Shown piece after piece: positions 1 through 4,783 of a stretch of DNA of 7,263 nucleotides (its first letter is position 1; the number at the start of each line of letters is the position of its first letter). A program made the position numbers and the translations under genes. This DNA comes from Candidatus Eiseniibacteriota bacterium (GTDB taxonomy: Bacteria > Arandabacterota > Arandabacteria > JAGLYR01): the NCBI GenBank assembly GCA_023132135.1, contig JAGLYR010000185.1, positions 1 to 7,263 on the forward strand, given 5' to 3'. The notes below the pieces were generated by a model. The model was not told where the DNA came from, did no database searches, and saw nothing but the letters and a program-made list of their open reading frames with translations.

Positions 1-14
1 CCTGTCACCTGTCA
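1..14. repeat. Two tandem copies of a 7-bp unit (CCTGTCA)
   Basis: CCTGTCA occurs twice back to back at 1-7 and 8-14, followed by another C. The window begins here, so the array may continue to the left. It lies downstream of the sulfatase-like gene and outside any supported gene. It may be the end of a short intergenic repeat, or chance. Confidence 0.3.
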
Positions 15-72
15 CTGGATCTATGAATCGGCTTTGCCTGTGTGACGTAGCAGAAACCTGGTGAGAAATGCA

Positions 73-89
73 GGCTACTGAATGTAGCC
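73..89 (-). terminator. Short hairpin across the stop codon of the sulfatase-like gene, possible weak terminator
   Basis: A perfect 6-bp inverted repeat (GGCTAC, 5-nt loop, GTAGCC) spans 73-89. It contains the TAG stop (75-77) of the minus-strand gene. Read on the minus strand, the stem is followed by TGCATTTCTC, only a poor T tract, so it is at best a weak intrinsic terminator or a 3'-end stabiliser. It is the only hairpin I see at the end of the two-gene minus-strand unit. Confidence 0.3.
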
Positions 90-2903: not shown

Positions 2904-3875
2904 ATGGGATTGGAATTCCTGGATAGGGATTACCCTGTGGTCCTGGCCCCGCTGGCCGGGTACTCGGTGCGGCCGTTCCGGAAGATCTGTCTGGAGCACG
3001 GGGCGGCGGCTGTGTGGTCGGGAATGATCAGCGCCGACGGGCTCGTCCGCAGGGACAAGGAATCGCGCCGCGCCGCGCATTTTGATGAGGCCGAACGCCC
3101 CATCGGACTGCAGCTGTTCGGGGCGAAGCCGGACGTCATGGGGGAGGCCGCCGCCATTCTGTCCGAACAGAAGCCGGACTTCATCGACCTCAACGCCGGT
3201 TGCCCTGTCAAGAAGGTCTGCAAGCGCAACGGAGGATCCGCTCTGCTCAAGGAACCGGAGTTGGTGGGACGCATTGTCGAGACGATGGTCGAGGCCAGCG
3301 ATGTTCCCGTCACGGTGAAGATCCGTATCGGCTGGCAGAAGGACCATTGCAACCACCTCGAGGTCGCCCGGATTGTCGAGGAGGCGGGAGCTGCGGCCAT
3401 CAGTGTCCATGGCCGGACGCGGTCGGAGCGGTTCGAAGGTCGGGCCGAGTGGAGGTTCATCGGCGAGGTTGTCGACACAGTTTCCATTCCTGTGCTGGGA
3501 AACGGGGACGTCAACACGCCGTTGGATGCCGAGAGGATGTTCAAAGAAACCGGTTGCTCCGGGGTCATGATCGGGCGCGCAGCCATGGGGAACCCGTGGA
3601 TCTTCGGAAGAGTCAATGCCTGGCTCCGGTCGAAGGAGGACATCCCGGAGCCGACGCCCGCGGAGCGGGCAGAAACATGTTTCCGCCATGCCGAGAGTCT
3701 GCTGGCCGACAACGATGAGGAACCGGCCATGCGGGAATTCCGCAAGTTCCTGGTGCGGTACTCGAAGGGATTGCCCTACAGCTCGCGGTTGCGCAGACAT
3801 CTGCCGGAGCTGTCGTCGCTCGACAGACTGAAGGCCGCGTTGGATGAGCTGCTGGATAGCCTGGATTCTTCATGA
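2904..3875 (+). CDS. dusB: tRNA-dihydrouridine synthase, DusB type
   Basis: A 323-residue FMN enzyme that uses NAD(P)H to reduce specific uridines in the tRNA D-loop to dihydrouridine. A TIM-barrel domain covers about residues 8-240, followed by the helical tRNA-binding domain. Visible landmarks: the FMN-site strand APLAGYSVRPFR (15-26); the catalytic cysteine Cys100 in LNAGCPVKKV; Lys139 in VTVKIRIGW; His169 in VHGRTR; NGD at 200-202; and GRAAMGNPWIF (224-234). GCPxKKV, GSALL and VHGRTR favour DusB/NifR3 over DusA or DusC. In APLAGYSVRPFR the usual Met and the Asp of the 'TDxPFR' stretch are Leu and Val, a mild departure. ATG 2904 gives the usual short lead before the barrel; starts at 2853 or further upstream add unconserved sequence and would lie across the promoter candidate. 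The last five codons and the stop lie inside the 56-bp palindrome, so the original C-terminus may have been changed. Confidence 0.95.
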   Translation: MGLEFLDRDYPVVLAPLAGYSVRPFRKICLEHGAAAVWSGMISADGLVRRDKESRRAAHFDEAERPIGLQLFGAKPDVMGEAAAILSEQKPDFIDLNAGCPVKKVCKRNGGSALLKEPELVGRIVETMVEASDVPVTVKIRIGWQKDHCNHLEVARIVEEAGAAAISVHGRTRSERFEGRAEWRFIGEVVDTVSIPVLGNGDVNTPLDAERMFKETGCSGVMIGRAAMGNPWIFGRVNAWLRSKEDIPEPTPAERAETCFRHAESLLADNDEEPAMREFRKFLVRYSKGLPYSSRLRRHLPELSSLDRLKAALDELLDSLDSS

Positions 3876-3912
3876 ATCCCTGCGCTGCGGGATTCCTGAA
3901 TAACCCAGGCTA
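3857..3912. repeat. 56-bp imperfect palindrome (REP-like hairpin) across the dus stop codon
   Basis: The arms are 3857-3880 and 3889-3912, with an 8-nt loop, TGCGCTGC (3881-3888). Twenty-one of 24 positions pair. The outer 8 bp are perfect (TAGCCTGG with CCAGGCTA), and so are the inner 7 bp (GAATCCC with GGGATTC). The mismatches are 3865/3904, 3868/3901 and 3873/3896. The TGA of dus (3873-3875) lies inside the left arm. No T tract follows on either strand, so it is not a standard intrinsic terminator. Its size, symmetry and position at a gene end fit a REP/BIME-type repeat of the kind moved by RAYT transposases. It could also block 3'-end decay of the dus mRNA. Confidence 0.75.
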
Positions 3913-3948
3913 CAACGGCAGCGTTGAGGTCTCGTGTGTCTCTGAGAC

Positions 3949-3955
3949 AGAGGTG
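3949..3955 (+). promoter_or_regulatory. Ribosome binding site supporting the TTG start of the LysM/TPR gene
   Basis: AGAGGTG ends 6 nt before TTG 3962. The ATG that would begin the same frame at 3872 has no such site and lies within the palindrome. A small inverted repeat, TGTCTC-T-GAGACA (3937-3949), touches this site and might affect its access. Confidence 0.5.
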
Positions 3956-3961
3956 AAGAGC

Positions 3962-4783
3962 TTGAGAATTCGTGGTGGCCCCTGCAGATTGCCCATTCGC
4001 CGTTTCGGCGGTGCGCCGTTTCGCTCCGTTTCCGCTTTCCCCCTTCATCTTCTGCTTGCCCTTGCCCTTCTCACAACTTGCGCGCCTCCGCCTCCGGTCC
4101 TCCCGCCCCCCGACTACCCGGACCAGATGACGCTGTACACGCTTCAGCCGGGCGAGACGCTGCATGACCTGGCGGAGCGCAGCTATGGTGATCGGTCCCT
4201 GGGATGGTCCTTGGCCATCGTGAACGAGTTTCCCGATCCGGGGATGCCGGAAGCAGGCACGACGATTTACATCCCGAACAGCCCCGAGATCCTGGTTTCC
4301 ATGGCCCAACAGCGCGGGGCGGCCAAGCGGCCCTACAACCGGGGTACGGTTCTGCTGGAATTGGGTCGGAACCGCGAGGCCATCCGTCAACTGGAGCAGG
4401 CTCTCTCGGTCGTGCCTGAAGTCGTGGCACCGCGGTATCATCTGGGCGTGGCCTACCTCAGGGAAGGGCGAGTGGAAGAAGCGGTCATGGAACTGGAGGA
4501 AGTTGCCCGGCGCCGCCCTCTGGATCGGGATTTCAGGTACGCGCTGGGTTGTGCCTACCTGGAGCAGGGAACTCTTGAGGCAGCGCGCAGGCAGTTCGAT
4601 CAGGCTTTCCGGTTCGACAACTCCTTCGCCCCTGCCCAGTTCGGTCTGGCTCTCGCCCTGCACCTCCAGGGCAAGCGGCGAGACGCCGCAAAGGCGTGGC
4701 GTGGCTACCTGGAGATGGACCCCACCGGGGACTGGGCCGAGCAGGCGCGCCGCCGCCTCATGAGCCTTTACGAGGAGGACTGA
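3962..4783 (+). CDS. LysM and TPR repeat protein, predicted secreted, probable lipoprotein
   Basis: A 273-residue protein if read from TTG 3962. A basic N-terminus and hydrophobic stretch (LHLLLALALL) lead to L-T-T-C with Cys40, then a proline-rich linker (APPPPVLPPP). Thr just before the Cys is unusual for a lipobox, so lipidation is likely but not certain. Residues about 59-104 are a LysM-like module (YTLQPGETLHDLAERSYGD to TTIYIP), the family that binds peptidoglycan or related glycans. Residues about 124-258 are four consecutive 34-residue TPRs, a protein-binding scaffold. No catalytic domain is present. It is probably an envelope scaffold. An in-frame ATG at 3872 overlaps the dus stop as ATGA, but it would add about 30 residues encoded by the palindrome and spoil the signal peptide; TTG 3989 is another possible start. 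The stop lies 7 nt before ecfA1, which suggests co-transcription, but no functional tie to the transporter is evident. Confidence 0.85.
   Translation: MRIRGGPCRLPIRRFGGAPFRSVSAFPLHLLLALALLTTCAPPPPVLPPPDYPDQMTLYTLQPGETLHDLAERSYGDRSLGWSLAIVNEFPDPGMPEAGTTIYIPNSPEILVSMAQQRGAAKRPYNRGTVLLELGRNREAIRQLEQALSVVPEVVAPRYHLGVAYLREGRVEEAVMELEEVARRRPLDRDFRYALGCAYLEQGTLEAARRQFDQAFRFDNSFAPAQFGLALALHLQGKRRDAAKAWRGYLEMDPTGDWAEQARRRLMSLYEED

Follow-up and report, generated by a model that had tools for sequence, protein, structure and literature searches.

REP/BIME elements, which are mobilised by REP-associated tyrosine transposases (RAYTs), are dispersed palindromes lying downstream of genes in many extragenic copies; they prefer gene 3' ends and have a tag feature at the hairpin end (PMC3733652). 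MITEs of insertion sequence (IS) families are short and geneless, have terminal inverted repeats in common with an autonomous IS, are flanked by a target duplication and show an intergenic bias; the review that describes them does not mention the IS1380 family (PMC10969869). Insertion sequences of this family (ISEcp1, ISPme1, IS1247), which encode a PF13701 transposase and make a 4-bp duplication, mobilise 3' flanking DNA (PMC9330008). The ERIC/IRU repeat of enterobacteria (127 bp) is one long, MITE-like hairpin with TA-type termini. YPAL/RU-2 of Yersinia (168 bp) is a palindromic intergenic repeat; internal inverted repeats have been described in it, and its target duplications vary in length (PMC2229807).

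The palindrome analysed here overlaps the 3' end of dus in Candidatus Eiseniibacteriota bacterium, and is most probably, at roughly three chances in four, an internally deleted copy of an end-to-end hairpin MITE of about 175 bp with terminal inverted repeats of the IS1380 family. It resembles REP/BIME elements in its dispersal downstream of genes in about 40 extragenic copies, and differs from them in having no GTAG tag, no RAYT and a target duplication of the DDE type. All the MITE features listed above are found in its family, but the full-length form is a hairpin of fixed length whose interior is conserved across phyla. It shares with the IS1380 insertion sequences the 4-bp duplication and only the ends, of about 20 bp. 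The core layout of ERIC is similar, and several elements agree with it in register and orientation, although its ends are different; YPAL/RU-2, of similar size, is set apart by description only. No description of the arm sequence or of an IS1380 MITE of this kind was found in the open-licence literature. MITEs are a known kind of element; what appears to be new is this family, together with its distribution and its conserved core.

The palindrome at the dus stop codon and its copies in the host

The window, that is, the whole analysed stretch of 7,263 nucleotides, is contig C96 of a 3.4-Mb draft genome in 345 contigs. On its plus strand, dus, encoding tRNA-dihydrouridine synthase (2904–3875; Pfam PF01207, E 5e-86), runs into a palindrome composed of a left arm TAGCCTGGATTCTTCATGAATCCC (3857–3880), an 8-nt loop TGCGCTGC (3881–3888) and a right arm GGGATTCCTGAATAACCCAGGCTA (3889–3912). 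Direct reading confirmed the initial annotation in that 21 of 24 arm positions are paired and that the last five dus codons and the stop (AGC CTG GAT TCT TCA TGA, 3858–3875, plus strand) are element sequence. Its view that the structure is far from chance agrees with the predicted fold of 3850–3930, at -36.8 kcal/mol against -22.9 ± 3.2 in 200 shuffles (z -4.3), none of which was as good. Judged by transposon-type ends, the element spans 3860–3909 (CC...GG): the left end proper begins with CC at 3860 after ATAG (3856–3859), and the right end proper closes with GG at 3909 and is followed by CTAC. These flanks differ, so that a target duplication is absent at this copy. R3, a covariance model built from 28 elements of other genomes with no host sequence, matches 3860–3909 on the minus strand (38.0 bits, E 1.6e-9 in 44.7 kb). 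There is no transposase gene inside the element, either in these 56 bp or in the full length of about 175 bp.

The proposal that the 3' end of dus received the palindrome by insertion, and takes its stop codon from it, is supported, the TGA lying inside the element. The native terminus may have been replaced in this way, as also proposed; Dus homologues (37–48% identity) terminate close to this position, at a distance of a few to about 25 residues. A LysM/TPR lipoprotein-like gene follows (3962–4783, plus strand). The warning that its reading frame from ATG 3872 begins in repeat DNA is reasonable, and TTG 3962, which stands after AGAGGTGA (3949–3956) and runs directly into a lipoprotein-like signal, is probably the better start. 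At the other end of the window, a second element (1–77, plus strand) with the end GGTGAGAAATGCAGG is truncated by the contig end. It belongs to host family B; blast matches to it in the host genome number over 40, and R3 matches it weakly (1–74, 11.8 bits). The TAG stop of a minus-strand sulfatase gene, CTA at 75–77, is placed exactly at the family B end.

A blast search of the host genome with 3850–3920 gave 55 matches at E<=1e-3, which by our own count represent about 40 distinct places; the palindrome is thus dispersed genome-wide, as the initial annotation held, rather than present in a single copy. R3 detected three host families at a total of 42 places (E<=1e-3), scoring 91–103 bits for long copies of family A, 99–111 for B and up to 140 for C, and one family C copy is flanked by CTAG on both sides. 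Some host copies have a short loop of 8–20 nt, and others take the form of about 175 bp with the same arms (L026–L028, L034). Comparison of their sequences suggests that the short forms arose from the long one by internal deletions, the breakpoints of which differ, and the loop at dus would be the remnant after loss of an interior of about 120 bp. Left ends of host copies are sharp at TAG^CCTGG, whereas right arms continue into sequence common to other copies, namely CAACGGCA... in family A and AAATGGGAC... in family B. The proposed extent of 56 bp therefore stands on the left and not on the right, where the common CAACGGCA, often followed by GCGTTGAGGTCTCGG..., makes the local repeat longer; the right flank at dus (3913–3937, plus strand) is common, in varying length, to other host copies and was seen in the host only. 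Several additional short repeats, e.g. TATTCCCCAATCCCAGTCGCCTGTCACC, GTAGGGGCGACCCGGTGGGTCGCCC and GGACTAGGGACTGGGGACT (right flanks in L009–L046 and L177–L206), make up mosaics in the intergenic DNA of the host, and many host contigs end in them.

IS1380-type ends, target sites and a possible partner transposase

With CCTGGATTATTCATGAA, the element has the ends of insertion sequences of the IS1380 family, and IS1380 transposases with such ends are present in at least seven other genomes. A scan of GTDB genomes with 20 bases of the arm found at least 93 stretches under about 14 phylum-level names, where about 2 would be expected by our own arithmetic; most carriers of this arm core are draft metagenome bins, and some of the phylum labels may be wrong. 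Many of the stretches form inverted pairs about 160 bp apart, and in a filamentous cyanobacterium one inverted pair encloses a PF13701 transposase (E 2e-129). PF13701 was searched in 27 carrier genomes, and more transposases with these ends were found in Mariprofundaceae (L207), Armatimonadetes (L209, L226), Lentisphaerae (L210, L216), Euphemobacter (L213), Nitrospiraceae (L214) and Spirulinaceae (L225). The ends lie on both sides of the transposase at L082/L208, L207 and L209, and likewise flank a deletion derivative of 658 bp (L216/L125); further IS1380 transposases have such an end on one side. Beyond the terminal bases, IS interiors are unlike the hairpin core.

Identical 4-mers flank 29 of 57 element pairs (22 CTAG, 4 TTAG and 3 CTAA), as compared with a mean of 19.2 and a maximum of 28 when the pairing was shuffled 10,000 times. 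The sites often coincide with stop codons. In other genomes, an ORF of 100 codons or more terminates in frame on the TAG or TAA of the element at 39 of 135 element ends, against 10 in each of the other two frames and 69 of 656 control CTAG sites (Fisher p 2e-7). With a cut of 95 codons, stops abut host copies at 17 of 48 ends in family A (p 1e-5) and 21 of 43 in families B/C (p 2e-9), as compared with 109 of 997 TAG sites taken as controls; since some right ends are included among the left ends of the family A set, its left-end effect is understated. This bias may be due either to target choice or to survival of harmless insertions. The dus stop is an exception, in that it comes from inside the element and not from the TAG of the element: translation enters the arm and reaches TGA five codons on.

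A single near-complete IS1380 gene is present in the host, and its right end, CCCGCATTTCTCACCA, is identical to the family C ends and one base away from family B; an IS1380 gene with family A ends was not found in the host draft genome. Directly upstream of this only IS1380 gene is an IS3-like transposase gene (L173, 253–1500), which probably removed its left end. Among 16 genomes chosen for element matches, a clear IS1380 gene is present in only one. The copy-rich drafts G006, G042, G100, G133, G152 and G181 have no IS1380 gene, and G182 has a marginal match only. The missing partner could be explained by loss after spread, by assembly drop-out or by another transposase. A strong IS1380 expansion is seen in Ghiorsea (G076, locus L128), with 42 PF13701 matches in a 2.4-Mb genome; three of its loci were read, and none has A-type ends.

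A conserved hairpin core and its distribution

Elements from several phyla, 21 in all, group together when their interiors are compared by blastn. Intact elements are 168–178 bp long over a G+C range of 0.33–0.71. The long host form (z -8.6) and a Nitrospiraceae element (z -6.8) are predicted to fold end to end. The alignment of 28 elements, from which host sequences are absent, has compensatory changes at 40 of its 44 modelled pairs. Whereas the terminal 17 bp or so are widely different, the internal loop CGTMGCGAG/CGCAGCAG (CGUMGCGAG as RNA) is nearly invariant.

Matches to model R1 at E<=1e-3 were found in 19 of 193 genomes. R3 matched 27 of 386 sampled genomes (about 7%) at E<=1e-8, a figure not fully independent of that of R1 because R3 was trained partly on elements from this sample. 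Relatives of the same class have the element in two of seven cases and lack it in five. A minimal form, the perfect 32-bp palindrome TAGCCTGGATTATTCATGAATAATCCAGGCTA (L146, 7705–7736; L151, 2350–2381), is carried by Mariprofundaceae (one mismatch class variant) and by a Gammaproteobacteria bin. An element of this type is present on the IMG/VR viral contig IMGVR_UViG_3300031452_000089 (L172, 1054–1242). A 34-mer query had no match in plasmid and phage collections, nor had a 182-bp element query in plasmids, and Rfam at its gathering threshold had no match in the window or in 11 loci with elements.

A second size class of about 117–127 bp (L251–L255; L163, 6016–6131; G405, G166, G319) aligns to the models in their inner core alone; its ends are different and its layout is ERIC-like. 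The order of motifs is ERIC-like in these interior-only matches of 117–127 bp and in host family C. R2 places ERIC in register at only 3–4 bits (E 0.14–0.31), and R1, R3 and nhmmer gave no significant match to ERIC. Local alignments of elements with ERIC were equalled in 0 of 500 shuffles for L254 and 1 of 1000 for L278, these being the best among the thirteen elements tried and the others weaker. A kinship with ERIC, judged by sequence, is only a lead.

Origin of the element and its meaning

The preferred explanation starts from direct observations, namely the identity of the ends with IS1380, the 4-bp duplications in relatives, the structured full-length form of fixed length and the abutment on stop codons; to these it adds three presumptions, namely that the element is mobilised in trans, that its interior is lost by deletion and that it is neutral at the stop. 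An IS1380-type DDE transposase acting in trans would recognise the element ends and choose 4-bp YTAR sites, mostly CTAG, for insertion. Such a CTAG or TAG is often at the same time the TAG stop of a gene, where an insertion does not alter the protein, and many copies would for this reason come to lie exactly on stops. The unstable palindrome would then shed its middle, leaving a REP-like stub as at dus.

The position of the palindrome directly at the stop codon might suggest a terminator or other 3' structure specific to dus, but the chance of this is negligible: the copy number in the host refutes a dus-specific structure, the proteins of Dus relatives end nearby without the repeat, and an intrinsic terminator is ruled out by the lack of a terminator-like U run. 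The initial annotation had instead seen a REP/BIME element mobilised by a RAYT, and short dispersed palindromes that adjoin gene 3' ends in mosaics with other repeats do look like this. Such membership is nevertheless very improbable. The foot TAG is paired with CTA and the base before it is variable, so that the unpaired GTAG/CGTC tag of REPs is wanting; relatives have 4-bp target duplications and IS1380 ends, and the full-length form is 175 bp. No intact RAYT was found in the host genome, where the sole PF01797 (IS200-like, Y1_Tnp) match is a fragment of 29.7 bits in a 112-codon frame on contig C145, for which no palindrome copy is listed; on this ground RAYT mobilisation was rejected. An integron attC site, considered for the AAC...GTT beside the right arm, was also rejected, since the motifs do not fit and a cassette array is not seen.

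Two further readings are nearer to the IS1380 MITE. The conserved right flanks of host A and B copies are unexpected for a cut-and-paste MITE, and may point to one-ended mobilisation of the ISEcp1/ISPme1 kind, in which the IS1380 transposase pairs one true end with a surrogate and yields units with a fixed left end and a variable right flank. Such modules, which carry along 3' flanking DNA, have been described (PMC9330008), and the host copies have left ends sharp at stops and right flanks conserved over varying length. No outer 4-bp duplication was demonstrated in the host, and recombination between repeats could also make the intergenic mosaics; this variant, compatible with the IS1380 MITE, is rather unlikely. 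A structured mobile element whose core is selected besides its ends, as a hairpin of RNA or single-stranded DNA whose internal loop binds a protein, comes close to an even chance without reaching it, and would borrow whichever IS1380-type ends suit the resident transposase. The constant length, the compensatory changes and the near-invariant loop between divergent termini favour a selected core, but template-switch correction of quasi-palindromes can yield compensatory changes without function, and the model matches were chosen for the core. Such correction could account for part of the covariation, though probably not for the whole, given the conserved mismatched loop. On a tentative wider view, held at somewhat under even odds, there is a pan-bacterial superfamily of structured hairpin transposons of fixed length, with a selected core, interchangeable IS1380-type ends and insertion at stop codons, of which ERIC is perhaps an enterobacterial branch.

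With the internally deleted IS1380 MITE as the preferred reading, a class of REP-like stubs can be worn hairpins of DDE transposons and not RAYT products, and IS1380 is named as the likely transposase family. Sites at stop codons explain the harmless accumulation of such elements, which there mislead gene-start calling downstream. The absence from Rfam, and the lack of plasmid and phage matches to the 34-mer and 182-bp queries, may explain why the family went unnoticed. If its core is functional, this would be a widely distributed mobile structured element, and if ERIC should truly prove to be its enterobacterial branch, the unsolved question of how ERIC moves would come within reach.
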